A DNA stretch of 52,154 nt from Blastocatellia bacterium (GCA_021463145.1 JAJTWZ010000028.1:1-52154), one strand, 5' to 3'. Counted from the stretch's first letter, positions 7,564 through 25,275 are shown. Notes: generated from the letters alone by a model not told the origin. A program made the numbers and translations.

Positions 7564-10500
7564 TCAGTTCGACTCGAACATTGCGTCGCTGATCGTGGCA
7601 AAGTCGAACGGTTTTCCGATGATCGCGTCCACGGGCCCGGAACCGGCCAGCCCCGGATCGATCGTCGCCGCATAGCCCGTCACGAGCACGACTCGAGTGC
7701 CGGGAGCTCGAGACTTCACCTCTCTCGCGACCGCCCATCCGTCCATTCCGGGCATGGACAGATCGGTAACGACCACGTCGAAATGCCCGGCACGTACTTC
7801 CTCGATCGCTTCCAGGCCGCTTCTGGAAGAAGAAACGTCGTGGCCGGCGGAAGCGAGCATGTCGACGAGCACATCGCGCACCGCATCCTCGTCGTCGACG
7901 ACCAGTACGCGCACTGACCGGGCCGGGGGCGCCGCCGGGCGCGGCTCGGCGGGCACGGGCGCCGTGGCCCTTGGCAGAAGGATCGAAACGGCAGTTCCCT
8001 GCCCGGGCTGCGACTCGACCTCGATCCGGCCGTGGTGGCGATTAACGATGCCGTAGCTGACGGCTAGTCCAAGACCCGTTCCGTTGACGCCCTTCGTTGT
8101 AAAGAACGGCTCGAAGGCGCGCCTGCGCACGTCGTCGGACATGCCTGTGCCCGAATCGACGAATCGAACCTTCGCGTAGTCGCCCGCCGAAGTGACTTCA
8201 ATCTCGATCGCACCGCCTCCGGGCATTGCGTCGAGCGCGTTTATCAGCAGGTTCACGAAAACCTCGCGCAACTCGGACGCGTCGCTCAGAACCGCCACTC
8301 CCTCTTCGGTCGATGCCAGCCGGATGTCGTACTGCACTCCGTGCGACTGGGCTTCGTTGCGCCACCGCGTTCTCGTGATCTCGACGGCATCGGCAGCTAT
8401 GGCCTTCACATCGACGGGCACGAGCTCGGAATCGGCACGCTGGTGAGCAAAAGTCTGGATTCGCTTGACGGTCGCGGCACCGTCGAGCGCGGCGGTTTCT
8501 ATGACATCGAGTGCACGGTGCGTTTCGACGCCCTCGAGCTTCCGCTTGAGCAATTGCGCCCGTCCCAGAATTGCAGCGAGCACGTTGTTGAAATCGTGAG
8601 CCACGCCCGACGCAAGCTGCCCGAGCGCGCGCAGCTTGTCGGCCTCGGCGGCCTTCTCGGCCGAGCGCTTCTCGTCCGTCACGTCGCGGCCAATTACGAG
8701 CACGCCCGTCACCCGTCCATCCTCGTTGACCGGCGCGGCTGTCAACACGAGGTCGCGCTCCGAATGCGAGGCGTCGATGAGAATCGTTTCGACTATCTGC
8801 GGGTCGCCGGCAATCGCGAGCTCGAAACATCGCTGCATGTCGGCGCGGGCGGATTCGGCGAGCAGGCCGCCGAACTCCGCGCCGTGCAGACGCGCTTCAT
8901 CGTATCCCGTCACGTCCCTGAGTGCGCGGTTGTACCAGACGATCCGGCCTCCAGCGTCGATCAGGGCGATGACGTCGTAGGCATTTTCAACGACGTGCGC
9001 GAGCACCTCGCGCTGCTGTTGCGACTCGCGCTCGGCGCGGCGCTGCGGGGTAAGGTCGTGCACGACGACGACTGCGCCGCGTGGACTGCCGTCGGCCGAC
9101 AGCATCGGATCCACGGTTATCGAAAGCTCGCGCCCCCGGCGTACCATCTCGCGGGTGACGCGTTCCGGCACCGCCATCGCGCGCTCGACGAGGCACTCCA
9201 CGTCGCGCTCGTCGTCGGCTGCAAGCAGTTCGCAGCAGCGCAATCCCGCAAGATCGGCAAACGACCGGCCCTCGAGCTCCCAGGCGGCACTGTTCGCCCG
9301 AATCAGCCTTCTATCCGGGCCCAGGATGTAGACAGCGTCCGACATCGAATCGAACGTGCCCTCCCACTCGCGTTTTCCGAGTGAAACCTGCTCGAACAGC
9401 CGGGCCTTGCTGATCGCGAATGCGGCACGTTCGGCAAATGGAGCCAGGATCCGCAGGTCGCGCTCCGAAAATGCGCCCGGAAGCGAGCTCTGCAGGTCGA
9501 GCACGCCGATCACATCGCCCTCGAGTATGAGCGGAACGGCAAGTTCCGACAGACAGGAAGTCCACCGGTCGCCATACCCTGACGAGCCTGCGGCGTCGCC
9601 GAGAATCAGTGGCTTTCGCGTTCTGGCCACGTGAGCAATCGCGCCCGGACCGTCGAGCGCGAGGCGAGCGCCGTTTAGTTCCGGCGAGTGGCCGTGGGTC
9701 GACCGCACCGTGAGCGACTCGCCCGAATGATCGACGAGCACGATCGCACTGCGTAGCCCCTCGAACTCATCGTCGATGGCCGTCAGGATCTGATCCAGAA
9801 GCGAGCCGAGATCGGAGGTGTCGATGAGAATACTCGCCGCGCGGAAGAGCGCCTGCGACTCGCGAACCGTCTCCCGCAGTTTCGAGTGCAGCCGAACCTG
9901 ATGGACGGCAGTCGCAACCTGGCGCGCAACTGATTCGACGAGGCTGACCTCCGAGTCTTTCCAGTGACGCCGGCGATCGCATTGATGAAGCTCGACAGTG
10001 CCGATGAACCTGTCACGCACGACAAGCGGCACGACGACCAGCGACTCGACGCCAAGCTCCGCAATCCTCCGGCGGATGTCGTCGATCCGCGGATCCTGGC
10101 GTGCGTCCACAACGGTTCGAGAGACGCGGAAACCGAGCACCTCGCGCAGTAATGGCGTCCCCAGCAACAGCGATGGAAGGTCGGTCAATGCCTTCACGCC
10201 CGGTTCGCTGAACTGCGCCGAATAGGTCGCGCGATCCGCCGTCTCGTCGAACAACGTGATCGCTGCGCGCGACACCGAGAGCACGAGGTGCAGCCCTTCG
10301 ACCGCGAGGTTGAGCGTCTGGTCGAGATCCACCGAATCCCGGACCGATGCCGACAGCCGGTTCACGAACTCGAGGCGCTCTGCCTGCTGGCTGGTTTCGT
10401 CGTACAGACGTGCGTTCGTAATGGCGATCGCCGCCGAACTTGCGAGCGATGCCGCAAGCGCGACGTCGTCTTCGGTGAATGCCGACGGCTCGTCGAAATT

Positions 10501-11424
10501 GTGAAGAAGCAGGACCCCGAGCCGCTCCGTCGGCGTCGCGATCGGAGCCGAGATCGCCGACCGGATCCGGAACTGGTCCACGTGGCGAAGAAGCAAACGC
10601 ATCTGGCCCGACTTTGCGCGCGCTTCTCCGCCCCAGATTCTGACCTTTCGATCGGCGAACACGGCCTGTGGCTGTATGCGCTCCATCTCGATCTGCAGAT
10701 CGTGGATCAGGTTCTGGTTCTCGTAGCCGGTCGCCGCCTGTACGAGCAAACGGTCGAGCTCCGCGTCGTACAACAGCAACGCTCCGGCTTCGGCGCCCGG
10801 AATCGTCTCGATGGCCTGACGCAGGATCTGCTCGAACAGCGCGTCGAGGTGTAGTTCGGCATTGAGCGATGCGGAAATCTCGAAGAGCGCCGTGAGCCGG
10901 GCGGTGCGTTCCTGGATGCGATGCTCGAGCTCGACGTTCATCTGTTCGAGCTGCGTCGAGTAGTTCTTGAGGTCTCGATGCATCCCGTTGAACTGCTCGG
11001 CCAGATCCCCATAGAGAAAGGGCGACTGACCGACCAGGACAATCCGTGCCAGGGCGCCTTCCGGCGTTCGTTCCGCCGACGGACGGAACGAGAGCTCTAT
11101 GGGATCTCCCCCACGCGCGCGGAGCGGCAACCCGACCGCGGACTGCCCCCCGGACTGGAGTGCCCACGTGAGCCGGCTCTGCGCGTTCTGACGCTCGTCG
11201 GGCGCGAAAAGCGCGGCGAGCTTCTCTCCCTCGATCTCCTGCCGCGCGATGCCGGTCAACCGCGAATAAGTCTGGTTGACGAACTGTATTACGCCGTGGC
11301 CGTCGACGATGACGAAGATGTCGTTCGCCCGCTCGACGAGGTCGCGAAACGACACGTCGAATCCGTCCGCCGCCGACGGATCCGCATCGAGCGTCCCACG
11401 CTTCTGGCCAACATTGTCCATCAT
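7564..11424 (-). CDS. Hybrid sensor histidine kinase (PAS/GAF, HisKA, HATPase, REC)
   Basis: A 1286-residue soluble sensor kinase without membrane segments. In order: an N-terminal PAS domain (FRDLVERANDIFVIVDGHGV), a short coiled coil, three GAF domains (about residues 160-710), two PAS domains (about 715-900), HisKA with H-box SGVAHDFNNVL (His near 943), an HATPase_c domain ending in GTGLGLAVSYGIV, and a receiver domain with phosphoacceptor Asp near 1221 (TDLSMPGMDG). It should sense small cytoplasmic signals, autophosphorylate and relay to its own receiver. No response regulator is adjacent, so its output partner is unknown. Two consecutive ATGs (11424, 11421) are possible starts; an upstream in-frame ATG at 11481 overlaps a possible -10 element and is less likely. 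Confidence 0.9.
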   Translation of the reverse strand: MMDNVGQKRGTLDADPSAADGFDVSFRDLVERANDIFVIVDGHGVIQFVNQTYSRLTGIARQEIEGEKLAALFAPDERQNAQSRLTWALQSGGQSAVGLPLRARGGDPIELSFRPSAERTPEGALARIVLVGQSPFLYGDLAEQFNGMHRDLKNYSTQLEQMNVELEHRIQERTARLTALFEISASLNAELHLDALFEQILRQAIETIPGAEAGALLLYDAELDRLLVQAATGYENQNLIHDLQIEMERIQPQAVFADRKVRIWGGEARAKSGQMRLLLRHVDQFRIRSAISAPIATPTERLGVLLLHNFDEPSAFTEDDVALAASLASSAAIAITNARLYDETSQQAERLEFVNRLSASVRDSVDLDQTLNLAVEGLHLVLSVSRAAITLFDETADRATYSAQFSEPGVKALTDLPSLLLGTPLLREVLGFRVSRTVVDARQDPRIDDIRRRIAELGVESLVVVPLVVRDRFIGTVELHQCDRRRHWKDSEVSLVESVARQVATAVHQVRLHSKLRETVRESQALFRAASILIDTSDLGSLLDQILTAIDDEFEGLRSAIVLVDHSGESLTVRSTHGHSPELNGARLALDGPGAIAHVARTRKPLILGDAAGSSGYGDRWTSCLSELAVPLILEGDVIGVLDLQSSLPGAFSERDLRILAPFAERAAFAISKARLFEQVSLGKREWEGTFDSMSDAVYILGPDRRLIRANSAAWELEGRSFADLAGLRCCELLAADDERDVECLVERAMAVPERVTREMVRRGRELSITVDPMLSADGSPRGAVVVVHDLTPQRRAERESQQQREVLAHVVENAYDVIALIDAGGRIVWYNRALRDVTGYDEARLHGAEFGGLLAESARADMQRCFELAIAGDPQIVETILIDASHSERDLVLTAAPVNEDGRVTGVLVIGRDVTDEKRSAEKAAEADKLRALGQLASGVAHDFNNVLAAILGRAQLLKRKLEGVETHRALDVIETAALDGAATVKRIQTFAHQRADSELVPVDVKAIAADAVEITRTRWRNEAQSHGVQYDIRLASTEEGVAVLSDASELREVFVNLLINALDAMPGGGAIEIEVTSAGDYAKVRFVDSGTGMSDDVRRRAFEPFFTTKGVNGTGLGLAVSYGIVNRHHGRIEVESQPGQGTAVSILLPRATAPVPAEPRPAAPPARSVRVLVVDDEDAVRDVLVDMLASAGHDVSSSRSGLEAIEEVRAGHFDVVVTDLSMPGMDGWAVAREVKSRAPGTRVVLVTGYAATIDPGLAGSGPVDAIIGKPFDFATISDAMFESN

Positions 11425-11471
11425 TGCGAGTGCCCGACAGGAGGGCCGCCAGTCCCGGGCGCCTGTCGCCG

Positions 11472-11480
11472 AGTATACCA
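11472..11480 (-). promoter_or_regulatory. Possible extended -10 promoter of the hybrid kinase gene
   Basis: The minus strand reads TGGTATACT, an extended -10 element (TGn plus TATACT). There is no recognisable -35 at 17 bases. The implied start lies about 40 bases before the ATG at 11424 and supports that start. Confidence 0.35.
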
Positions 11481-11650
11481 TCGGGCCTCGAAGCCGCGGC
11501 TACAACCTCGAAGCGGTCTGCAGGGGTGCCCACCGCGCTCGTCACGAGCGCGGCCTCGGCTCGCGCCGCGACGGCGAGTGATCCAATGCCTCCGGATCTA
11601 TCCCCGCGTGGGAGTGCGGACGACTACTGATCGATCACGGCGCTCAACGA

Positions 11651-13479: not shown

Positions 13480-14007
13480 TCACGCGCCAGCAGACGCGGC
13501 GCGATCCTTCAGGTACTCGGCGGTGTATTCCACGTAATTCCGCCAATGAAAATCGATGAGGTCGAGGTCTTCGTCGGAGAGTGACCGAACGGGCTTCGCA
13601 GGCACTCCTGCAACCAGTGTCCGCGGCGGCACGATCGTATCCATCCGCACCAGGGAGCCTGCAGCCACTATCGAACCTTCCGAGATCACGGATCGGTCGA
13701 GGACCACTGCCCCCATGCCTATCAGCACGCGGTCTTCAATCGTGCACGCGTGCACGGTGACGCTGTGGCCGAGAGTCACGCGTGAACCGATGACCAGAGG
13801 GATCTCTCCCTGCACGTGCAGAACGGATCCGTCCTGAACGTTCGTTTCGTCGCCGATCGTGATAGGGCTGATGTCGCCGCGAACGACCGCGTTCATCCAG
13901 ATGCTCGAGCGTTCACCGAGCGTTACGTCGCCAAGCACCTGCGCGCTGTCGTCGACATAGGCGCTGGCGGGGACAAGCGGCGTCTTGCCACGAAAGGTGC
14001 GAATCAT
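13480..14007 (-). CDS. Gamma-class carbonic anhydrase family protein
   Basis: A 175-residue left-handed beta-helix (hexapeptide repeat) protein of the YrdA/PaaY/gamma-carbonic anhydrase family. The family signature NVQDGSVLH and GHSVTVH supplies three likely metal-ligand histidines, H64, H81 and H86. The C-terminal helix (about 140-170) is typical of the trimeric family. Many members have weak or no measurable carbonic anhydrase activity, so the substrate is uncertain. AGGAG lies 10 bases before the ATG. It is the first gene of the likely two-gene unit with aspS and is divergent from the ten-gene operon starting at 14170. Confidence 0.9.
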
Positions 14008-14169: not shown

Positions 14170-14439
14170 GTGATCCTGCTAGCGAACATTCTCGTCGCCG
14201 CCGCCGCCGTCTACGTCGCACTCGGCTTGCTCTTCGCCGCCGCGTTCGTGAAGGCCGGCGCCGTAAGGCTTAATCCATCGGCCGCACATGCCACGGTCGG
14301 ATTTCGCCTCCTGATCGTCCCCGGCACGGTCGCGCTGTGGCCGCTGCTTGCGTCCAGGTGGATGCGTGGGAAGGTTGCGCTTCGCGAGAAAACGCCTCAT
14401 ACGGTTGCAGCAGGCTCGCGGCGCGAGGTGCGGGCGTGA
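14170..14439 (+). CDS. Small membrane protein, first gene of the ten-gene operon
   Basis: An 89-residue protein with a GTG start 7 bases after GGGAGG. Two hydrophobic segments (about residues 2-25 and 45-62) suggest a helical hairpin in the membrane, with a basic C-terminal tail. I do not recognise a named family. The stop overlaps the next start (GTGA), so the two are translationally coupled. Position next to an anchored exported protein and a ferric-reductase/Rieske fusion suggests an accessory subunit of a membrane redox complex; this is inference from context only. Confidence 0.7.
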   Translation: MILLANILVAAAAVYVALGLLFAAAFVKAGAVRLNPSAAHATVGFRLLIVPGTVALWPLLASRWMRGKVALREKTPHTVAAGSRREVRA

Positions 14440-14906
14440 TTGCGCCGCTTCGACGGTGGCATCGCCGCACAACCGCCGCGCTCGCAATCGCGGTACCGGC
14501 GATGCTCGGCACGGCCTTGTTCGGCAGGCCAGAGGCGCCAGTCAACGCTTCGCTACCGGCGTCGAGGCCCGCGGCCGGCGCGGTGTCAGTCGAACCCATT
14601 CAGTGGTCCAGACCCGGCATAGCCGCGAGTCTCGTTCGATATACCGACGAGACGCACGAGATCGCCGTCGACGCCCGCACGCTCGCAACCGAACCGGACG
14701 TTCTGGCCTTTTGGCTCGAGCCCGGCGACGCTGGAGAGCCACCAATGGCGGGCCGGTTCCTCGGCGCGGTGCGTGGCACGGGAATCCGCCGTTTCGCGCT
14801 TCCCGACGGCGCCGCCAGCCACGGGGGAAGGATCGCTCTCTACAGCCTCGGCCGCGACGCGGTCATCGCCACCGCCGCGATCGGCGGCACGGGAGGCAGG
14901 CCGTGA
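14436..14906 (+). CDS. Membrane-anchored exported protein of the redox module
   Basis: A 156-residue protein starting at GTG 14436, which overlaps the preceding stop by four bases; an in-frame ATG at 14337 lies inside the preceding gene and is not needed. A basic N-terminus and one hydrophobic helix (ALAIAVPAMLGTALFG, about residues 13-28) are followed by an exported domain of about 120 residues ending in a Gly-rich tail. There are no cysteines or heme motifs in the exported part. No family recognised. Its stop overlaps the next start (GTGA), placing it firmly in the operon. Confidence 0.7.
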   Translation: MIAPLRRWHRRTTAALAIAVPAMLGTALFGRPEAPVNASLPASRPAAGAVSVEPIQWSRPGIAASLVRYTDETHEIAVDARTLATEPDVLAFWLEPGDAGEPPMAGRFLGAVRGTGIRRFALPDGAASHGGRIALYSLGRDAVIATAAIGGTGGRP

Positions 14907-15955
14907 GCCACGGATACGTTGCCGTCCAATGGAACGAGCAGAAGCGTCGCTACGACACCGTGATCGGGCTCGCACTCGCCGCCTATATCGGAATCTTCAC
15001 CGGGCTTGGCGCCGTCACGAATCCGTTCGCCACAGCCGAAACTTTGCTGATCCGTGCGCTTGGAAGCGCCGCGATCGTTCTTCTTCACGTCGCGCTCGCG
15101 ATCGGCCCACTCTGCCGGATCGATTCTCGCTTCCTTCCCCTGCTGTACAACCGTCGCCACCTCGGAGTCGTGACGTTTCTCGCCGGCGCGGCGCACGGGG
15201 GGTTCGCGCTGTTTCAGTTTCACGCGCTGAGCGACACGAACCCGTTCGTGAGCCTCCTGGCGAGCAACACCCGCGTCGCCAGCCTCTCCCAGTTTCCGTT
15301 CCAGCAACTGGGTCTCGCGGCGCTCGCGATCCTGTTTCTGATGGCCGCCACCAGCCACGACTTCTGGCTCGCGACTCTCACGGCGCCGGTATGGAAGCGC
15401 CTGCACATGCTCGCGTACCTCGCTTACGGGCTGCTCGTCGCCCACGTGGCGCTCGGGACGCTGCAGACCGACCGAAGTCCGCTTCTTGCGGGACTACTCG
15501 CCGTTGGCGCGGCAATCCTGCTTGGTCTGCACGTTGCCGCCGCTCGAATCGAAGTCCGCGCGGACCGCGAACAACCGCGAGCGTCCGACGGATTCGTGGA
15601 CGCGTGCGCGGTCGACGAGATTCCCGAGTCGCGGGCCCGAGTCGTTACCGTCTCGGGCGAGCGGGTCGCCGTCTATCGATTCGGAGACTGCGTGAGCGCA
15701 ATCTCGAGCGTCTGTCAGCATCAGAACGGGCCACTCGGTGAAGGCCGCGTCATCGACGGGTGCATCACGTGCCCCTGGCACGGATTTCAGTACGAGCCGG
15801 AGACAGGAGCATCGCCCGCACCGTTTACCGAAATGGTGCCCGTCTTCGCGACCGAGATCCGCGGCGGCCGGGTATTCATCGACCCCCAGCCGTTCGCTCC
15901 CGGGACACGAGTCGCGCCGTCCCGGATTGCTTCAAGGAAGGGGGCTGAGCAATGA
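14903..15955 (+). CDS. Ferric-reductase-like transmembrane protein fused to a Rieske domain
   Basis: A 350-residue fusion with a GTG start overlapping the preceding TGA. The N-terminal part (about residues 20-215) has six hydrophobic helices with conserved histidines in a ferric-reductase/MsrQ-like pattern (LLHVALAIGPLCR, RRHLGVV, AHGGFALF, RLHMLAYLAYGLLVAH), expected to bind heme. The C-terminal domain (about 240-345) is a Rieske [2Fe-2S] domain: C271-x-H273 and C290-x2-H293 in VCQHQNGPLGEG and CPWHGFQY. The fusion could carry electrons between the membrane quinone pool or a heme and a partner protein. There is no FAD/NAD reductase domain, so the donor must be separate. Function within the operon is inferred. 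Confidence 0.85.
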   Translation: MSHGYVAVQWNEQKRRYDTVIGLALAAYIGIFTGLGAVTNPFATAETLLIRALGSAAIVLLHVALAIGPLCRIDSRFLPLLYNRRHLGVVTFLAGAAHGGFALFQFHALSDTNPFVSLLASNTRVASLSQFPFQQLGLAALAILFLMAATSHDFWLATLTAPVWKRLHMLAYLAYGLLVAHVALGTLQTDRSPLLAGLLAVGAAILLGLHVAAARIEVRADREQPRASDGFVDACAVDEIPESRARVVTVSGERVAVYRFGDCVSAISSVCQHQNGPLGEGRVIDGCITCPWHGFQYEPETGASPAPFTEMVPVFATEIRGGRVFIDPQPFAPGTRVAPSRIASRKGAEQ

Positions 15956-16707
15956 CTCCACGATCGGACGAACCGCTTTACGTCGGCTACCTTCAGCCGC
16001 CGGCTCCAGTCGCCAGGCGCATGCGACGAATCGCCGCCTTGATCCTCGTCCTGGCTGCCGCATCTGCAGCTCTGGCGGCGGCCGGACACAGCCGGCTTCC
16101 CGCCAGCGTGTTCGAATTCGGCACGACTCGCACTTTCGAAGGTGTTGTCGTCGAGTCGCCGGCGCCGATGCTGCTCGTTTCGCGCGGCGCCGGCGGACTG
16201 GAACCGTCGGCCTGGCTGCTGGTCGCACCCGGAAAGCACGGCGCGGGCGAGATCGTTCAGGGACTCGACGGTGAGCGCGTGCGGTTATCGGGCACGCTGA
16301 TCGCCCGCGACGGTCAGACGATGATCGAGGTCCTGAGGGACTCGTTGACGCCGCTCGGCCAGAAGTCGACGGACCGGCCCGCGACGGTGGACCTCGGGCG
16401 CGTCACGCTCGCCGGCGAGATCGTCGACAGCAAGTGCTATCTCGGCGTGATGAATCCCGGCGAGTCGAAGTCCCACCGCGACTGCGCCGTGCGTTGCATA
16501 AGCGGTGGAGCGCCTCCGCTGTTCGTCGCGGCCAGCGCGTCGGGCGATCGGATGCAGATGCTGCTCGTAAGTCCTGACGGGGGCGCGCTGCATCGCGACG
16601 TGCTGCCGTACGTTGCCGAACCGGTCGAAATTTCCGGGCAACTCGAGTCGTCGGGCGATCTGTATGTCCTGCACACCACGGCGGCGTCGATCCGCCGCCT
16701 TTCCTGA
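15952..16707 (+). CDS. Membrane-anchored protein with Cys-rich GVMxPG...CAxxCIxGG motif
   Basis: A 251-residue protein whose ATG overlaps the previous stop (ATGA). A transmembrane helix at about residues 25-45 (AALILVLAAASAALAAAG) is followed by an exported domain. The C-terminal half contains SKCYLGVMNPGES, then HRDCAVRCISGGAPPLFV: three cysteines and a histidine in a pattern I have seen beside membrane oxidoreductases, but whose role I do not know. It could bind metal or heme. The fold looks mainly beta. Coupling to the Rieske fusion suggests a redox partner. Confidence 0.75.
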   Translation: MTPRSDEPLYVGYLQPPAPVARRMRRIAALILVLAAASAALAAAGHSRLPASVFEFGTTRTFEGVVVESPAPMLLVSRGAGGLEPSAWLLVAPGKHGAGEIVQGLDGERVRLSGTLIARDGQTMIEVLRDSLTPLGQKSTDRPATVDLGRVTLAGEIVDSKCYLGVMNPGESKSHRDCAVRCISGGAPPLFVAASASGDRMQMLLVSPDGGALHRDVLPYVAEPVEISGQLESSGDLYVLHTTAASIRRLS

Positions 16708-16729
16708 ACCCAACTTCGAGGAGCAAACG

Positions 16730-17554
16730 ATGTCCGCTCATCCGCACATTTCCTCAGCACTACCGCTCGCGATGCTCCCCATCGGTATCGCCGACGTTCC
16801 GGAGGTCGAGATCGGCGACGCCCGCTACCTGGTGCGTTACGCGCGGACTCCGGAGGAACTCGACGACGTGCTCCGCCTGAGATTCGAGGTATTCAACCTC
16901 GAACTGGGCGAGGGACTGAGGGAGTCGTTCGAGACCGGCCGCGACGAAGACGCGTTCGACGCGGTCTGCCGGCACCTGATGGTCGTCGAACGCGCGACCG
17001 GGGACGTAGTAGGCACCTATCGAATGCAGACGAGCGCGATGGCGGCCGCCGGTCGTGGATTCTACACAGCGACGGAGTACGATCTGTCCTTCGTGCCGGC
17101 GCACGTTCTCGATGACGCCGTGGAGCTTGGCCGCGCGTGCATCGCGCGAGAGCACCGCAACACGCGCGTGCTCTTCCTGCTGTGGAAAGGGCTCGCGGCA
17201 TATGTCGCTCACAACGGCAAGCGCTACCTTTTCGGCTGTTGCTCGCTTGCGTCGCAGGATCCGAAAGTGGCTTCCGGCGTGGCGGCCTGGCTCCAGACCA
17301 GCGGCCACGTCGCCTCCAGCCCGTGGATCGAGCCACTGGCGGCGTACGCATGTCAGGCGGTCCACGAACCGCCGGATGCGGGCGGCGCCCGCGTACCTCC
17401 GCTTTTCGGCATCTACCTGAGGCACGGTGCGAAGGTATGCGGCGCGCCGGCGCTCGACCGGGCGTTCGGCACCATCGACTTTCCGGTGATGCTGGACGTC
17501 AGGTCGCTTTCGGCAGCGTCGCGCGCGACGTTCTTTGGCGTCGAGGCCCGGTGA
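16730..17554 (+). CDS. OlsB-like N-acyltransferase (GNAT, Acetyltransf_5 type)
   Basis: A 274-residue protein starting at ATG 16730 with GAGGAG 6 bases upstream. It matches the ornithine-lipid N-acyltransferase / acyl-homoserine-lactone-synthase-like GNAT family: YLVRYARTPEELDDVLRLRF near the N-terminus, then GDVVGTYRMQTS and the ELGRACI motif. In OlsB this fold moves a 3-hydroxyacyl chain from ACP to the alpha-amino group of ornithine, giving lyso-ornithine lipid. An OlsA-like acyltransferase follows after 4 bases, which strongly supports aminolipid synthesis. Whether the amino acid is ornithine cannot be read from sequence. The 22-base gap to the preceding gene leaves it in the same operon. 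Confidence 0.85.
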   Translation: MSAHPHISSALPLAMLPIGIADVPEVEIGDARYLVRYARTPEELDDVLRLRFEVFNLELGEGLRESFETGRDEDAFDAVCRHLMVVERATGDVVGTYRMQTSAMAAAGRGFYTATEYDLSFVPAHVLDDAVELGRACIAREHRNTRVLFLLWKGLAAYVAHNGKRYLFGCCSLASQDPKVASGVAAWLQTSGHVASSPWIEPLAAYACQAVHEPPDAGGARVPPLFGIYLRHGAKVCGAPALDRAFGTIDFPVMLDVRSLSAASRATFFGVEAR

Positions 17555-17558
17555 CGCG

Positions 17559-18389
17559 ATGATATCCTCCACCTTGCCGACCTCCACCGAAATTGCACCT
17601 GCTGCGGGTGCTGGACTCGCCGGTTTCACGCGCGCCGCGTTTCGACTGATCGGAATGGCGGCGGGCTCGGCTGCGCTTTACCTGCTGTGGTTCGCGGGCG
17701 ATCTCGCGCGCGCCGCAAGGCCCGAAGCGCGCCGAATCTGGCGCGCGAAGTGTGTTCGCGGGTGGGGGCAAGCCACCGCTCGCGCTGCCGGGGTCCGGCT
17801 GCACGTGAGCGGCAAGGCGCCGGCGGCGCCGTTCCTGCTCGTCTCGAACCATCTCGGATACCTCGACATTATCGTCCTTGCTGCCGTCGCCGACGGCCGC
17901 TTCGTTGCACGCCACGATCTCGGCGACTGGCCCCTGATAGGAAGACTCGTCCGCGCGGGCGGCACGATACTCATCCGGCGCGACCTGCGCGCCGATACAG
18001 CCGCGGCGAGTGCTGCGATGCGCGCCGCATTCGATGAAGGCTCGGGAGTGATCCTGTTTCCCGAAGGCACGAGTTCCTCGGGTCACGACGTACTGCCTTT
18101 CCGGACTTCGCTTTTCGAGCCCGCAGTCGCGTTGGCGATGCCGGTCCACACGGCAGCACTCGCATACTCGACGCCGGAGGATACGACCGCGCCGGGCGAC
18201 TCGGTCTGCTGGTGGGGAGACATGAAGTTCGCACCGCATCTGTGGCGATTGCTGCAACTCGGCCGGATCGAGGCCCACGTGGCATTTGGCGACGAGCCAA
18301 TCCTCGGCAGTGAGCGAAAGCAGCTGTCGGCTGCTGCGCGCGACGCCGTCGTTTCGCTGCACGCATCGCTTCGCGCGGAGGTCCAATGA
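17559..18389 (+). CDS. OlsA-like 1-acyl-sn-glycerol-3-phosphate acyltransferase
   Basis: A 276-residue PlsC-family protein. The HX4D motif is NHLGYLD (H98, D103), the second block is FPEGTSS (near 167-173), and a hydrophobic helix at about 30-45 (AAGSAALYLLWFAGDL) anchors it to the inner membrane. The family adds an acyl chain to a hydroxyl; next to the OlsB-like gene, the most likely step is O-acylation of a lyso-aminolipid, with lysophosphatidate acylation as the alternative. ATG at 17559 lies 4 bases after the preceding stop; a TTG at 17535 is less likely. The stop overlaps the next start (ATGA). Confidence 0.85.
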   Translation: MISSTLPTSTEIAPAAGAGLAGFTRAAFRLIGMAAGSAALYLLWFAGDLARAARPEARRIWRAKCVRGWGQATARAAGVRLHVSGKAPAAPFLLVSNHLGYLDIIVLAAVADGRFVARHDLGDWPLIGRLVRAGGTILIRRDLRADTAAASAAMRAAFDEGSGVILFPEGTSSSGHDVLPFRTSLFEPAVALAMPVHTAALAYSTPEDTTAPGDSVCWWGDMKFAPHLWRLLQLGRIEAHVAFGDEPILGSERKQLSAAARDAVVSLHASLRAEVQ

Positions 18390-18895
18390 ACGGCCTCATC
18401 GACGGAATCGAGGAGAACGCCCGCGTTCTCGGGGAACTGCGCGAACTCGTCGCCGGACTCGACGCCGACCGCTACGCCACGACTGGCGGTTTGCCGATCG
18501 CTAGCGGTCCCGGCGGTCACGTGCGCCACATCCTGGACGCTTACGACTGTCTGCTTCGCGGCGTTTCCACTGGACGCGTCGACTTCACCGCCCGCGAGCG
18601 CGACGCTCGCACGGCGACCGACCCGTCGTTTGCGGCCAGACGGATCGATCTGACGATTCGCGGCCTTCGCGGACTCGGTTGCCCGGCTACGTCGCCGCTC
18701 CTGGTGCGCGCCGAGGACACGGCGGGGGGCGCCTGGTGCGCTTCGTCGGTCGGGCGCGAACTTCAGGCGCTGGTAAGTCACACGATTCACCATCTCGCGC
18801 TCGTGGCAATAGTGCTGCGATTGCGGGGCGTCGAACCCGGCGCGGCGTTCGGGGTCGCGCCGTCGACGCTGGCGCACTGGAGGAAGGCATCCTGA
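18386..18895 (+). CDS. DinB/YfiT-like metal-binding protein
   Basis: A 169-residue helical protein. GGHVRHILDAYDCLLRG and SHTIHHLALVAIVLR give the spaced histidines of the DinB/YfiT four-helix-bundle family, whose members bind a divalent metal and include thiol-dependent transferases and hydrolases. ATG overlaps the preceding stop by four bases and its stop overlaps the next ATG by one (TGATG), so it belongs to the operon. Substrate unknown; in this setting a role in handling an acyl or thiol-linked intermediate is speculation. Confidence 0.75.
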   Translation: MNGLIDGIEENARVLGELRELVAGLDADRYATTGGLPIASGPGGHVRHILDAYDCLLRGVSTGRVDFTARERDARTATDPSFAARRIDLTIRGLRGLGCPATSPLLVRAEDTAGGAWCASSVGRELQALVSHTIHHLALVAIVLRLRGVEPGAAFGVAPSTLAHWRKAS

Positions 18896-19650
18896 TGTGC
18901 ACCGTAACGTGGTTGCCGTCGCGTGACGGATTCGAGTTGCGCGTCAATCGGGACGAAAAGAGGACGCGATCCGTCGCGTTTCCTCCATCCATTTTCGAAC
19001 GCGGCGGCGTGCGCGTCATCTCGCCGCGCGACGTGGATGGCGGCGGAACGTGGATCTCGGTCAACGATTCGGGTGTCGCTCTCGCGCTCTTGAACGGGCA
19101 GTCGGGCGCCGGCGCGCGGCAGGGAACTCGAAGCCGCGGGCTGCTCGTCGACGAGCTTTCCGGCTCGACGTCGGTTTCGGAAGCTCGCATGACACTGGGG
19201 CGGGCGTCCCTCGATCAGTTCTCGCCATTCACCCTGCTCGTCATTGAGCCCGGTGTCACGGCGTGCATCGCGCGGTGGAACGGCTCGACGTTGACCGTCG
19301 ACGGGGCCGCGCCGCTTTCGGGAATGCTCACGTCGTCGTCCGTGGAGTGGGTTGAGGTGAGCGAGTCACGAAGCGGGGTCTACGCCGAGCTCGTCCGGAC
19401 GCTGCGGGGGCCGAGTGCCGAGATGCTCGAGCGCTTCCATCGCGGACACGATCCGAGCCGAGGTTTTCGCTCCGTCTGCATGCATCGCGATGATGCCGAG
19501 ACCGTGAGCTTCACCCGTGTTGCCGTCTGCCGGGATGCGGCGCTCATGCATTACGAGGACGGGCCTCCCTGCGACGCGTTGCGCTTCGACCCGGTGGCGA
19601 TATCGAGGCGGGCGGCCGCAACGCGGCGTCCGATGGCGGGGGTCCGATGA
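18895..19650 (+). CDS. NRDE/TANGO2 family protein
   Basis: A 251-residue protein beginning MCTV with NRDE at residues 18-21, the signature of the TANGO2/NRDE family. Cys2 would become N-terminal after Met removal and act as nucleophile if the protein is an Ntn-type hydrolase. Later blocks (GGGTWISVNDSGVALALLN, SPFTLLVI) fit the family. Eukaryotic relatives are tied to heme and lipid handling, but no reaction is established. It is tightly coupled on both sides (1-base overlap upstream, ATGA overlap downstream), so it probably works with the lipid enzymes around it. Confidence 0.85.
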   Translation: MCTVTWLPSRDGFELRVNRDEKRTRSVAFPPSIFERGGVRVISPRDVDGGGTWISVNDSGVALALLNGQSGAGARQGTRSRGLLVDELSGSTSVSEARMTLGRASLDQFSPFTLLVIEPGVTACIARWNGSTLTVDGAAPLSGMLTSSSVEWVEVSESRSGVYAELVRTLRGPSAEMLERFHRGHDPSRGFRSVCMHRDDAETVSFTRVAVCRDAALMHYEDGPPCDALRFDPVAISRRAAATRRPMAGVR

Positions 19651-21419
19651 GCGTACGGCTGGCTGAGTTCTCGTTCCCGAGCCGGCGAACGCTCCGTGCA
19701 GCGGCCTGTGCAATTCTCCTCGGCGCCGGATTGCTGTTGCCGGTTTCGTTCGTCGCGGAACCGATCGGCGCCAGGCTCGGGCCGACGCTTGCCGGATTCC
19801 TGCGTTCCGACCTCGGGCTCTTCCTGCAGCTCGCATTGTCGACTCTGGCAAGCGAGGACCTGGCGTGCATCGGCGGAGGCGTGCTGGTGGCAAGCGGCCG
19901 TGCGACCTACGCGCTTGCCGCGGTCGCGTGCTTCTCGGGAATCTTCCTTGGCGACCTGGCCTTGTTTGCCGCCGGACGCGTGTTCGGGCGCCGGCTGTTG
20001 AGATTTCGGGTAGCGCGGCGATTCGTCGGCGCGCGCGACGTCGAGCGCTCGGCCGCCTGGCTCGAGTCGCGCGGGACTGGTCTCATCCTGGTCAGCCGGT
20101 TCCTGCCCGGGACTCGTCTCCCGACGTACCTGGCCGCCGGGATGCTGGGCACCAGCGTCTGGCGATTCGCCGGAGCGTTTGCGCTGGCTGCGGCTGTGTG
20201 GACGCCGGCGCTCGTCTGGCTCTCGGCCTGGCTAGGGGCCGAGGCGCTCGAATCGGCCCTCGCGACGATGGCCGGTGCCGGTGTGGCGGTAGCCGTCGCC
20301 GGGTTCGTCGCGCTGGCTGGCGTCCGTCTCGCGCTCGTCCTGGCGCGTCCACAGTCGCGCCGTCGCGTGCGCGCGCGTTTGCAGCGGGTGGCGCGCTGGG
20401 AATTCTGGCCGCCGTGGATGTTCTATCCACCCGTCGTCGTCTACATCGTGTGGCTCGGGCTACGCAATCGCGGGCTGGGTGTGTTTACGGCTGCGAATCC
20501 CGCGATTCCCGATGGCGGATTCGTGGGGGAATCCAAGTTCGGAATCCTGTCCAGACTGACGGCGGCGCCGGAGCGGGTAGCCAGAACCGTACTGCTGCCG
20601 GGGAAACTCTCTGCGGATTCACGGCTCGAAATCGCTCGAGACTTCATGGCCGCAAACGAGCTCACGTATCCCGTCGTGCTCAAGCCCGATGTGGGGCAAC
20701 GTGGCGAGGGCGTCGAGATCGTCCGCTGCGGCGCCCGGATGGCGGCATCGATCGCCGGCCGTCGCGGCGACATCGTGCTGCAGGCGTATGCACCGGGACA
20801 CGAGTTTGGTGTGTTCTGGGCGCGAAGGCCGGGAGAGTCTCGCGGATGGATCGCCTCGATAACGGAAAAGCGATTCCCCGAGGTGACGGGCGACGGGCGC
20901 TCGACCCTCGGCGATCTCATCGATGCCGACGACCGGGCGGTGCTGATGCGCCGCGCCTACGGCGCATCGCTCGGCGACCGGATCGCTGCTGTTCCCGGTG
21001 CCGGCGAAACCGTCCGCCTCGTCGAGTTGGGATCGCACTGCCGCGGCGCCGTGTTCCTCGATGGAAGCTGGGTCTGGACGGAGGCACTGGAGCGGGCGTT
21101 CGACCGCGTGGCTGGAACGGACGGAGGTATCTGCTTCGGCCGCTACGACGTGCGCGTCGAATCGATCGAAGCGTTCCAGCGCGGCGAGGGGTTCACCGTC
21201 GTCGAACTGAACGGCGTGACGTCCGAAGCCACCCACATTTACGACCCACGCACTCGACTGACGGACGCTTACCGGGTGATCTTCGGGCAATGGCGGACCG
21301 CGTTCGAGATAGGGGCCGCCAATCGCGACCGCGGCGCGAAGCCGGCTTCCGCCTGGGGGCTCGCCCGGGCGGCGGTGCGGTTTCTCGCCTCTGGCGTTCG
21401 GGGCCGATGTAACAATTGA
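19647..21419 (+). CDS. DedA membrane domain fused to an ATP-grasp domain
   Basis: A 590-residue fusion. The N-terminal part (about residues 15-235) is a DedA/VTT membrane domain with several helices and the family motif SRFLPGTRLPTYLAAGMLG; DedA proteins move lipids such as undecaprenyl phosphate across membranes. A linker with PPWMFYPP and IPDGGFVGESK leads to an ATP-grasp domain (about 325-560): TYPVVLKPDVGQRGEGVEIV with the ATP-binding Lys, an LQAYAPGHEFGVF block, and a C-terminal metal-binding ELNG (Glu-x-Asn). ATP-grasp enzymes ligate carboxylates to amines or thiols through acyl phosphates. The fusion suggests that a ligated product is a lipid or is made at the membrane. Starts within ATGA overlap. 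Confidence 0.88.
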   Translation: MSVRLAEFSFPSRRTLRAAACAILLGAGLLLPVSFVAEPIGARLGPTLAGFLRSDLGLFLQLALSTLASEDLACIGGGVLVASGRATYALAAVACFSGIFLGDLALFAAGRVFGRRLLRFRVARRFVGARDVERSAAWLESRGTGLILVSRFLPGTRLPTYLAAGMLGTSVWRFAGAFALAAAVWTPALVWLSAWLGAEALESALATMAGAGVAVAVAGFVALAGVRLALVLARPQSRRRVRARLQRVARWEFWPPWMFYPPVVVYIVWLGLRNRGLGVFTAANPAIPDGGFVGESKFGILSRLTAAPERVARTVLLPGKLSADSRLEIARDFMAANELTYPVVLKPDVGQRGEGVEIVRCGARMAASIAGRRGDIVLQAYAPGHEFGVFWARRPGESRGWIASITEKRFPEVTGDGRSTLGDLIDADDRAVLMRRAYGASLGDRIAAVPGAGETVRLVELGSHCRGAVFLDGSWVWTEALERAFDRVAGTDGGICFGRYDVRVESIEAFQRGEGFTVVELNGVTSEATHIYDPRTRLTDAYRVIFGQWRTAFEIGAANRDRGAKPASAWGLARAAVRFLASGVRGRCNN

Positions 21420-21429
21420 GGAGAAAGAA

Positions 21430-22143
21430 ATGCAACGCGTGATTCTGGTAACTGGAGGTACGGGCGGGCTCGGCGGAGCTGTGGTGCGCGCCTTTCTCGA
21501 CCAAGGCTCCGTGGTAGTGGCCACTTATCGGCGGCGCTCGGGATTCGACTCGCTCGTCGCACAGATTCGTGAAGACGGTGCTCTCACCGGCGTCAGCGCC
21601 GTCGATCGGTTGCACGGCGTGGAAGTGGATCTCTCGGACCGCAGCAGCGTGCGCGCAGCGGTCGCCGACTCCGAGGCCCGATTTGGCGGGATCGATGCGC
21701 TCGTACTAGCGGCCGGCGGCTTCTCGGGCGGGGCGACGGTCGAAGAGACGGACGACGAAGTCCTCGACAGGATGATCGAAATGAACCTGCGCTCGGCGTT
21801 CGTCTGCGCGGGAGAAGCGATGGCGGCGCTCGCCAGACGTCGCGGCTCGATCGTCGCCGTGGCATCGCGGTCGGCCGTCGAGCCTGGCGCCGGGGTCGGA
21901 GCATACGCCGCGTCGAAGGCCGCGCTTGTTGCGTTGATCCGGTCGATCGCGGCCGAGGGCATCACCAGGGGCGTGCGTGCGAACGCCGTGCTTCCGGGGA
22001 CGATCGCAACTGCCGCAAACCTCGACGGAAGCGATGCATCGGCCCATCCGGACTGGGTGCGCCCGGTCGACCTCGCCGCCGTCATCCGTTACCTCGCGTC
22101 GGACGATGCCCGGGCCTTGAATGGCGCCGCGGTGCCGGTGTAG
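21430..22143 (+). CDS. Short-chain dehydrogenase/reductase
   Basis: A 237-residue classical SDR. The cofactor motif is TGGTGGLG (residues 8-15); the catalytic set is Asn in MNLRSAFV, Ser in VASRSAVEPG, Tyr159 and Lys163 (YAASK). The TYRRR after the second strand suggests NADP(H) preference, as basic residues there bind the 2'-phosphate. GAGGAG lies 7 bases before the ATG. It is the last gene of the operon, 10 bases after the DedA/ATP-grasp gene. FabG-like enzymes share this fold, so reduction of a 3-oxoacyl chain for the OlsB-like step is a reasonable guess. Confidence 0.9.
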   Translation: MQRVILVTGGTGGLGGAVVRAFLDQGSVVVATYRRRSGFDSLVAQIREDGALTGVSAVDRLHGVEVDLSDRSSVRAAVADSEARFGGIDALVLAAGGFSGGATVEETDDEVLDRMIEMNLRSAFVCAGEAMAALARRRGSIVAVASRSAVEPGAGVGAYAASKAALVALIRSIAAEGITRGVRANAVLPGTIATAANLDGSDASAHPDWVRPVDLAAVIRYLASDDARALNGAAVPV

Positions 22144-22395: not shown

Positions 22396-25275
22396 CTAGT
22401 TGCCGGTCCGGCCAGTCTGCACCTGAACGTCGTCGATCCACCAGCCACCTTCGTTGACGAACGGATCCGAGACGAGGCTGAACCGGATCGATACCTTCTG
22501 CTTCCCGTCGAACGCACTGAGATCGATCGATGCCGTTTCAAACTCCGGCTGTGCTCCCGAATACACCATTACGGTCCGCCAGCCGTTGGTTCCCTTCGCC
22601 TTCACCTCGACGATACAGAGGTCATAGCCGACTTCCGTATCGAACGAATGCTTGAAGACGAGCCGGGATCCAACGCCTCCGGTCAGATCGAACTTCGTCC
22701 GCAGTTGCAGCCGGTAAGTGGTGTTGTCGGCATAGTTCGCGCCCGGACTGTCGCTCCAGGCGTGCGTCGGACTGGCCGAGCGCTCCGTATCGAGCTTGAA
22801 CTGCCCCGCTTTCCAGTTCGCCTGTCCCTGCTCGAGCGAGTCGTTGAGCAAGTCGACGCTCCGTACGATCCGCGCCGTCGCCGTCCTGGCCTCGTTCCCC
22901 GTGGCGTCCTGGTACGTAACCGTCACCGTGTCGCCCTGGGCCACGTCGAGCGTGTTGTTGCCCATCGTCACCGATCCACGCCGCAACAGAAGGTTCGTCC
23001 GGAAGCGTCCCGGGATGCCCGCCGCCTGGCCGACCACGATCGGCTCCGAATCGCCCGACGACGACGTCACCGTAACGTTCACCGTCTCCTGGCCAGCCAG
23101 ATCCGCGTCGCCGACTTCGATCTGAACGATCGTGTCGGCTTCGTCATAGGACTTCTTGCCGAATGCGACCGCACCCTCGCTCTCGCACCACGGGGGCAGG
23201 TTGAAGGCTTCCTTGACCGATGTCGCGCTGCCGTTGAGCGAGAAGGCCCCGTAACCGACACCACGCCGAGCGAATCCCTGCCAGATCAGGCACTGATTGG
23301 CGCCGCCGGTCCGTACCTGATCAGCGATCAGAATGCCATCGCGCGCATCCGTGAACGACGGATTGTTGAGCGAGTACTTCATTCCATCGGTGACCAGTTG
23401 TTCGACGAGCGCCTTGCCGGCCGCGAAGCCATACTCGGTAATGAAGTTCGCCCGAACGTCCCATAGAGCCGCACACCAGACCTCACCGACGTTGTGGACT
23501 TCCGTCGGATCGTTGAACTCCTGGCCCGTGGCCGGATCGATCTCCTTGTACGTCAGAGGATTGACCGACATTTTCGTAGTAACCGGGAACGCCCGGACCC
23601 CGGTCCGGAAATTGCGCGTCGCGTATCCGCCGACGACGTAGCTCGCGTCGGGCGCCGCGTTCTGCGGAGCAAGCATCGTAAGCCCGTACCAGTCTCCCCA
23701 GCCTTCTCCCATGCCGCCCGACTGCGGGCCCGTCAGACCGTCGACATAATCCGGGCCGCCTACCAGTCGAGTCGAAAGGCCGTGACAATACTCGTGAATG
23801 ATGATCGACGTGTCGAAGCTGCCGTCATAACCGCCGCTCCAGAGGAACATCTGCATCCGCGGCTCGAGCCCGTCGACCGGCGTGGAAAAATTCGCATTGT
23901 TGGTGCCGGCGCCATCCTGCGCATCCGCGTTCACGGCGTCGCCACCTCGCCCCTCTTCAGTGAAGTTCGTCGCCTGGAAATTCCCCGCCGCCTCGTCGAA
24001 CCCCAGACGGTACAGATAATCGTGAATGACGTTGTTCCAGTAGAAGAGATTTACGATCGCCGCGTCGGTGTTCGGCTTGCTCGGAACGATCGGGCTATCG
24101 AGCGGAGGGCTGAAAGTGAACACGCTGTCGCCCGACGCGGGCAGGCCGCCGGAGTTGTTCGCATCCTTGTCCTCGACCGCCGTCACGTTGTTGCCGATCG
24201 TGACCGGGGTGCTGCCGACCCATCCGTTCGGCGAAACGTCGAGAATGGAGCTTCCTGGCGAGACGAGGACTCGCTCGACGTGACCGGGCGTGCTCGTGCT
24301 GAACGGAATGTTCGGCTGCGGGCTCTCGCCGGTGAACACCCGGAATTTCGCGTCCGTCGCGAGGGCCGTGCCGTACCGCGTGCGATTGTGGCGCGCAAGC
24401 ACCCTTCCGTGCACCGCATCGACAGTCACGACATACAGGTTCCCGGGGCCGCGCTCCGCCAGCACGACCGTCCACGCGGGAACCGTGCGGCCCGGCGCGA
24501 GAGGAAACAGCAGCTTTCTGGCCGTCGCGGGCTCGGTAAACGCCTCGCCGAGCTCGATTGCGGTCAGGTCTTCCGCGCCGCCCTTCGCGGTGACAATCGA
24601 TGGAGTCGCCGAGGCGCCGATCGACCGTGCCGCCGCAACCGCCGCCCCCGCGGCATCCAGCGCCCAGCCATCTGCCTTGGCGGCCACGCCGGCGTCCGGC
24701 ACGAGCTCTCCACCGGCCCACACGACTCGGCCGTTCCGATCGACCGCCATACGCAGATCCGCGCCGTAAACCCGGACTCCACCTGCCCTCTGATTGAACT
24801 GGAGGTGAGTGACTCCCGTGTCCGGCGACCTGTAGTTGCGCACGAGTTCGAGACCATCGAGGTCCGCCTCTCCGAGACCGTAGAGCGCCGCGCGTTCGCG
24901 AATGAACGCTTCGCCGATCTCGGCAGGTGAGCCTTTCCGGGCCTCGGCGATGGCGCCGCTTGCGGGCACGATCAGCCGCGGACCACCGGTGAGGATGCTC
25001 CAGCGTACCTGCGCTCCAGGCGATTCGGCCAGGAGTTCCACCATCGACTCGCGGCGTGCGTCGGACTTGGAAAGCGACGCGGCCTCGATAGCTTCGGGCG
25101 CAAGCAACGCTCTGGAGTTGAAGGAAGCAGTGCGAATGTCGAAGTCCGGAAGCGTCGGACACGCCAGTGGAGTTCCTTTTCCGGGAACGATCGGCTGGGC
25201 TGTCGAATTCGGGATGTAAAACGTGGAAATGGCGAGCAGGCCGAGGGCCGCACCGGTCACGAACATTCTGCGCAC
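22396..25275 (-). CDS. Secreted M36 (fungalysin-type) zinc metallopeptidase
   Basis: A 959-residue secreted protease. GTG at 25275 is the start: GGAGGT lies 8 bases upstream. A signal peptide (about residues 4-27) is followed by an FTP/PepSY-like propeptide region (about 90-320) and the M36 catalytic domain (about 350-680) with zinc motif H494-E-Y-C-H498 and third ligand E524 in GMGEGWGDW. The C-terminal part (about 690-959) has beta-rich modules, the last resembling a MAM/jelly-roll domain (WIDDVQVQTG). The propeptide normally inhibits the enzyme until autocleavage. Probable role: extracellular protein digestion. No dedicated secretion gene lies nearby. Confidence 0.93.
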   Translation of the reverse strand: MRRMFVTGAALGLLAISTFYIPNSTAQPIVPGKGTPLACPTLPDFDIRTASFNSRALLAPEAIEAASLSKSDARRESMVELLAESPGAQVRWSILTGGPRLIVPASGAIAEARKGSPAEIGEAFIRERAALYGLGEADLDGLELVRNYRSPDTGVTHLQFNQRAGGVRVYGADLRMAVDRNGRVVWAGGELVPDAGVAAKADGWALDAAGAAVAAARSIGASATPSIVTAKGGAEDLTAIELGEAFTEPATARKLLFPLAPGRTVPAWTVVLAERGPGNLYVVTVDAVHGRVLARHNRTRYGTALATDAKFRVFTGESPQPNIPFSTSTPGHVERVLVSPGSSILDVSPNGWVGSTPVTIGNNVTAVEDKDANNSGGLPASGDSVFTFSPPLDSPIVPSKPNTDAAIVNLFYWNNVIHDYLYRLGFDEAAGNFQATNFTEEGRGGDAVNADAQDGAGTNNANFSTPVDGLEPRMQMFLWSGGYDGSFDTSIIIHEYCHGLSTRLVGGPDYVDGLTGPQSGGMGEGWGDWYGLTMLAPQNAAPDASYVVGGYATRNFRTGVRAFPVTTKMSVNPLTYKEIDPATGQEFNDPTEVHNVGEVWCAALWDVRANFITEYGFAAGKALVEQLVTDGMKYSLNNPSFTDARDGILIADQVRTGGANQCLIWQGFARRGVGYGAFSLNGSATSVKEAFNLPPWCESEGAVAFGKKSYDEADTIVQIEVGDADLAGQETVNVTVTSSSGDSEPIVVGQAAGIPGRFRTNLLLRRGSVTMGNNTLDVAQGDTVTVTYQDATGNEARTATARIVRSVDLLNDSLEQGQANWKAGQFKLDTERSASPTHAWSDSPGANYADNTTYRLQLRTKFDLTGGVGSRLVFKHSFDTEVGYDLCIVEVKAKGTNGWRTVMVYSGAQPEFETASIDLSAFDGKQKVSIRFSLVSDPFVNEGGWWIDDVQVQTGRTGN

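Follow-up and report, generated by a model that had tools for sequence, protein, structure and literature searches.

A conserved bacterial operon that joins aminolipid-type acyltransferases, a DedA/ATP-grasp fusion and a membrane redox module: a candidate system for aminolipid assembly and export

Analysis of a 52,154-nucleotide stretch of DNA from a Blastocatellia bacterium of the phylum Acidobacteriota (GCA_021463145.1 JAJTWZ010000028.1:1-52154, referred to here as the window) has identified a block of ten plus-strand genes at 14170-22143, numbered g1 to g10, in which a membrane redox module is followed by OlsB-like and OlsA-like acyltransferases and by a protein that fuses a DedA domain to an ATP-grasp domain. 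We propose, with a probability of about one half, that this is a dedicated aminolipid assembly-and-export operon in which a lipid would be made, ligated to a further group by the ATP-grasp domain and exported via DedA, with the redox module coupled to this process. The proposal builds on the association of these genes across genomes, on a separate OlsB subfamily, on domain folds and on conserved active sites, each of which is observed directly.

The open reading frame coordinates, which are those of an earlier sequence-only reading of this DNA, bear out its description of ten plus-strand genes separated by gaps of no more than 22 bases and linked by six overlapping junctions. Five of the overlaps are of 4 bases, with GTGA at g1/g2 and g2/g3 and ATGA at g3/g4, g6/g7 and g8/g9, and the g7/g8 junction is a 1-base overlap (TGATG); spacings at the other junctions are 22 bases (g4/g5), 4 bases (g5/g6) and 10 bases (g9/g10). 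Terminator-like sites inside the block show no excess (3 versus 5.4 expected from shuffles). On both sides the block is bounded by genes of the opposite strand, namely a hexapeptide-repeat protein at 13480-14007 and a large M36 peptidase of the fungalysin type, with a propeptide motif and an InhA-like MAM domain, at 22396-25275. Also on the minus strand of the window, at 7564-11481, is a hybrid sensor kinase with one receiver domain and multiple PAS and GAF domains. The protein families that had been assigned by eye were upheld by Pfam, NCBIfam or a structural model for g3, g5, g6, g8, g9 and g10, while g7 matches DinB only below the cut-off.

Relatives of g9 occur in the same class and additionally in Planctomycetota, Opitutales and Polarisedimenticola, a spread that rests on individual loci where it extends beyond Acidobacteriota, the phylum covered by our genome counts. 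The recurring gene order around these relatives is OlsB-OlsA-DinB-(TANGO2)-g9, and among 61 g9 loci the partners located within 8 kb are OlsB (37 loci), DinB (35), OlsA (30), TANGO2 (22) and the redox pair g3-g4 (14). Since these counts include near relatives, a sample of 297 Acidobacteriota genomes was taken, in which g9 is present in 40, OlsB in 52 and g4 in 26. Both g9 and OlsB are found in 34 genomes from 11 families where 7 genomes would be expected (p 2e-25, to be read as a guide only, like the other co-occurrence p-values given here, as genomes are non-independent draws), and the two genes lie within 10 kb of each other in 29 of the 34. Likewise, g9 is present in 24 of the 26 genomes with g4, versus 3.5 expected (p 1e-22), in 10 families and with ten of the pairs at separate loci; when families are counted instead, 10 of the 12 with g4 include genomes in which g9 accompanies it (p about 4e-8, assuming that some 80 families were sampled). 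On these statistics we reject a chance grouping. Relatives do not retain just the OlsB/OlsA pair, as a chance grouping would have implied in the sequence-only reading; instead OlsB is accompanied, much more often than chance would allow, by g9, the DinB-like and TANGO2/NRDE genes and the redox set, in various families and also in a second phylum. The exception is the short-chain dehydrogenase (SDR) g10 (21430-22143; Pfam PF00106), which lies in the operon but is ruled out as a core member by an above-threshold SDR match near g9 at 1 of the 61 loci, there on the opposite strand. All parts of the operon other than the SDR are conserved.

The acyltransferases of the operon are g5 (16730-17554), an OlsB-like N-acyltransferase of the GNAT type, and g6 (17559-18389), an OlsA-like lyso-aminolipid O-acyltransferase in which the motifs NHX4D and FPEGT are conserved. 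Both are above the Pfam cut-off, with 100 bits for PF13444 in g5 and 77 bits for the acyltransferase model in g6. The best NCBIfam models are OlsB and OlsA, respectively, yet an assignment to OlsB or OlsA proper was rejected as the scores are far under the equivalog cut-offs (129.5 versus 320 and 125.2 versus 350 bits for g5; 136.6 versus 300 bits for g6). A tree of 60 OlsB-type proteins places g5 in a single clade of 43 members (support 100/99), 42 of which are from g9-bearing loci or genomes, in five cases without being adjacent to g9; the sole member that is not associated with g9 is from genome G055. The OlsBs of family f16, taken from genomes that have no g9 match, form the sister group of this clade, and the reference proteins fall outside of it, with locus L160 (a pSymB match) used only as an outgroup. 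Two g9 genomes that do not have an OlsB of the clade carry an OlsF-like fusion instead (420 and 369 bits), for which OlsF is the best model although the scores are under its cut-off of 620. Overall, genes with PF13444 are present in 36 of the 40 g9 genomes versus 30 of the 257 genomes without g9, and the Opitutales g9 genomes (G363, G364) have an OlsB-sized PF13444 gene that is located away from g9. As a separate observation, a Chloracidobacterium-like genus of the same class (labelled g16; G017, G021, G025) has an OlsF-sized PF13444 gene (frames of 635-651 aa) and no g9.

The protein encoded by g9 (19647-21419) consists of a transmembrane (TM) helix, a DedA (VTT) domain that scores 56.9 bits against the PF09335 cut-off of 33.9, and a C-terminal ATP-grasp ligase domain. 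Its AlphaFold model (pLDDT 75) has a DedA-like helical part and an ATP-grasp fold at residues 254-563, which align with cyanophycin synthetase (7wae) over 263 residues with a Z score of 15.4 and an rmsd of 4.7; other matches to the fold include GshF (3ln6, Z 14.8), Ddl (13.5) and many amide ligases with Z above 12. A profile search likewise links the C-terminal part to ATP-grasp ligases. No Pfam ATP-grasp family is above its cut-off in the g9 of the window, and the best score in a relative is 20.8 versus 21.0 for RimK; by these scores the ATP-grasp part is a divergent family. As modelled it has the fold of an amide ligase, and alignment indicates that the catalytic residues are kept. Most relatives outside of family f3 additionally contain an alpha/beta-hydrolase between the N-terminal TM helix and the DedA part, with a GxSxG pattern in 4 of 5 examples and acidic and His motifs in 5 of 5. 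The g9 of the window retains the first TM helix and has no such hydrolase, and a search of the same genome for one encoded elsewhere returned only generic hydrolases with E values of 2e-10 or worse and no clear orthologue. The distribution of charge around the TM helices, with the hydrolase following an N-in helix and a positive loop ahead of the ATP-grasp domain, suggests that the N-terminus and the ATP-grasp domain face inward and that the hydrolase is outside, in the periplasm. There also are split forms, with the ATP-grasp domain apparently encoded without DedA, beside DinB and TANGO2, in G140/G312 (L134, L135) and a hydrolase-DedA copy without ATP-grasp in G048 (L071). Given these split forms, and the genomes of family f52, which have no DinB-like match and no TANGO2 match at the locus, not every part is indispensable. 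In a same-order genome two genes are located within the lipid operon, between DinB and the hydrolase-DedA-ATP-grasp gene (L045:6221-8410); one encodes a DNA methylase (N6_N4_Mtase), and with its neighbour it possibly makes up a restriction-modification pair.

Could the genes described so far simply constitute an ornithine-lipid operon, in which DedA flips the lipid and the ATP-grasp domain, acting on no lipid substrate, has a regulatory role or powers transport? That the two acyltransferases best match models from ornithine-lipid synthesis would fit this reading, as would the OlsF-like genes that stand in for OlsB and OlsA in two genomes. Against it, the ATP-grasp catalytic residues are nearly invariant among 61 g9 homologues (K346 in 98%; D501, E520 and N522 in 100%), and the apparent retention of ATP-grasp without DedA in G140/G312 speaks for this domain being catalytic in its own right. 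We consider a plain ornithine-lipid operon to be unlikely.

The two genes between the acyltransferases and g9 encode a DinB-like protein (g7, 18386-18895) and a TANGO2/NRDE protein (g8, 18895-19650). The match of g7 to Pfam DinB_2 is under the cut-off (16.8 versus 24.8 bits, with 23.1 in a relative), and a His triad of candidate metal ligands (H48, H132, H136) is invariant in 38 of 38 homologues. In the Acidobacteriota sample this family is restricted to genomes with g9 (25 of 25, p 3e-26), with 22 of them adjacent. The TANGO2 domain of g8 scores 42.4 bits versus a cut-off of 22.6 (PF05742), and both C2 and the NRDE motif (N18-R19-D20-E21) are 100% conserved in 15 proteins. The human TANGO2 protein binds acyl-CoA, and NRDE is required for this binding (PMC11867700). 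A further reading is that the ATP-grasp, DinB-like and NRDE proteins make or use a membrane-anchored soluble thiol or peptide, similar to glutathione, that would act with the redox module in protection of the envelope, with aminolipid chemistry being separate and co-regulated. Thiol transferases belong to the DinB superfamily, one of the nearest ATP-grasp folds is that of GshF, and in genome G119 the redox set is found with DinB and TANGO2 but without an adjoining OlsB, all of which would agree with a thiol or peptide product. This is difficult to reconcile with a ligase that shares its polypeptide with DedA and, in the majority of relatives, with a predicted periplasmic hydrolase, with an OlsB clade that is associated with g9, and with the OlsF-like fusion that is present where OlsB is absent, and we regard it as more doubtful still than the plain ornithine-lipid reading.

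The redox module begins with g1 (14170-14439), an 89-aa membrane protein with one predicted TM helix at residues 9-27, and g2 (14436-14906), a fast-evolving 156-aa protein with a borderline TM or signal segment at 12-30; neither has a Pfam or NCBIfam family above cut-off. In g3 (14903-15955) a ferric-reductase (heme) membrane domain (PF01794) is fused to a Rieske [2Fe-2S] domain (PF00355), both above the Pfam cut-off, and the candidate heme His residues and the Rieske CxH/CxxH motifs are conserved in 26 of 26 proteins. A predicted membrane-anchored exported protein is encoded by g4 (15952-16707; TM 27-45), in which the cluster C162-H175-C178-C182 is invariant in 27 of 27; its only family match is DUF5818, below threshold, and a low-confidence model (pLDDT 64) that resembles OB folds behind a TM anchor, with poor rmsd, gives only a hint of an OB-fold protein. 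At all 20 loci retrieved by g4 the g3 and g4 genes are side by side, and g1 precedes them at 19, the remaining locus being truncated by a contig end; g2 homologues were detected in L102, L108 and L038. The order g1-g3-g4-g5-g6-g9 is kept at L114-L118, L120, L121 and L136-L138, while Planctomycetota locus L038 has g1-g6 in order and then g9. At all of these loci and at L108 the redox module immediately precedes OlsB and the remaining genes, shares their strand and follows the order of the window, an order that is common to at least three families plus a second phylum. At L112 and L104 the module instead adjoins the DinB-like gene (plus TANGO2 in L112) with g9 elsewhere, and thus parts of the operon recombine yet remain within the same genomes. 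Between the redox module and DinB, both L104 and L112 encode a small exported protein judged by eye to be YHS-domain-like, accompanied in L112 by a DoxX-like protein; many loci of the same class have DoxX-like genes of similar type between DinB and g9. Additionally, one or two extra Rieske-domain proteins of about 540-670 aa adjoin the redox module at L061, L108, L109, L111 and L115. In ten Acidobacteriota genomes with both g4 and g9 the redox module is encoded apart from the lipid genes, and its contribution could therefore be an indirect one. That the redox and aminolipid sets are independent modules and mere neighbours here, as separate locations in ten genomes and the presence of the redox set beside other Rieske proteins might indicate, is the least probable of the readings considered, given that nearly every g4 genome contains g9 and that the joint order recurs across families and phyla.

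For the aminolipid assembly-and-export pathway that we favor, we infer the substrates, the sequence of reactions, the transport direction and the redox coupling as follows. OlsB (g5) would N-acylate an amino acid, most likely ornithine, and OlsA (g6), going by what is known of its family, would add a second acyl chain to yield a diacyl amino-acid lipid. More speculatively, acyl donors would probably be handled by g8, the TANGO2/NRDE protein, and g7, the DinB-like predicted metal protein, may carry out or aid a step at the head group or one involving a thiol. Via an acyl-phosphate, the ATP-grasp domain of g9, predicted to be cytosolic, would then couple the head group to a second unit bearing a carboxylate or an amine, giving a lipo-dipeptide-like lipid that the fused DedA domain would move outward through the inner membrane. 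The alpha/beta-hydrolase, predicted to be periplasmic, that most relatives have within the same protein may then trim or transfer the product. Extension of the head group before export is the most plausible order because an ATP-grasp amide ligase both adjoins OlsB/OlsA and is fused to a lipid-moving DedA domain. The g1-g4 proteins may constitute a transmembrane electron conduit comprising a Rieske domain predicted to be cytosolic, a heme-binding membrane domain and an exported Cys/His protein, which would serve the same lipid or, more speculatively, a periplasmic redox step. In its most specific form, which we put forward tentatively and with less confidence than the general proposal, g9 would be a single-protein lipo-dipeptide synthase and flippase, finished by the hydrolase in relatives and energized or completed by a dedicated electron conduit. 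The outline of acylation, ATP-dependent ligation and transfer across the membrane that was drawn in the sequence-only reading fits the domain evidence, which does not extend to the redox change of the lipid that it also included or to an ornithine-based product.

In the literature searched there is no published description of this operon, no report of a DedA/ATP-grasp (VTT/ATP-grasp) fusion and none of DedA with aminolipids. An ornithine-taurine lipid has been known since 1976 (cited in PMC4484230), and the second-residue step of the flavolipin pathway is stated to be unknown (PMC10191378). The operon supplies a candidate ligase, fused to a transporter, for two-residue amino-acid lipids in Acidobacteriota, Planctomycetota and Verrucomicrobiota (Opitutales), and g9, if it is a single-protein synthase and flippase, would be a first such candidate from genetics. 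A firm lipid context is also gained for the TANGO2/NRDE and DinB-like families of bacteria, which is of use since lipid metabolism is involved in human TANGO2 disease and the human protein binds acyl-CoA (PMC11867700).

For completeness, we compare the operon with systems that are already known. It resembles the OlsB/OlsA (OlsF) pathways of ornithine and glycine/glutamine lipids in having a PF13444 N-acyltransferase followed by a PlsC-type O-acyltransferase, and differs from them in its low equivalog scores, in its own OlsB clade tied to g9, and in its extra conserved partner families, which are absent from the portion of a pathway review that was available (PMC11631085). The redox module is similar to MsrPQ (YedYZ) and to bacterial ferric-reductase-domain proteins in that a heme membrane domain is expected to pass electrons to an exported partner. 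In contrast to MsrPQ, g3 has a fused Rieske domain, an architecture noted earlier for ferric-reductase-domain proteins (PMC3591440), and scores 34.3 bits against the MsrQ cut-off of 130; its partner g4 is not MsrP, and no MsrP is found among the ten operon genes. With cyanophycin synthetase, GshF and D-Ala-D-Ala ligase, g9 shares the ATP-grasp fold and catalytic residues, whereas it is without the other domains of CphA and GshF and is membrane-fused to DedA and usually to an alpha/beta-hydrolase. Similarly, g9 shares an above-cut-off VTT domain with DedA transporters of the UptA and YqjA type, to which it adds a C-terminal ligase and, usually in relatives, an N-terminal hydrolase. In MprF/LpiA, one protein aminoacylates a lipid head group and its second domain moves the lipid across the membrane. 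A Pfam scan of g9 gives VTT only, with no MprF synthase or flippase domain. As we envision it, g9 would work in a like manner, by combining head-group extension with a flippase, but with an ATP-grasp ligase in place of a tRNA-dependent transferase and with DedA/VTT as the transporter.
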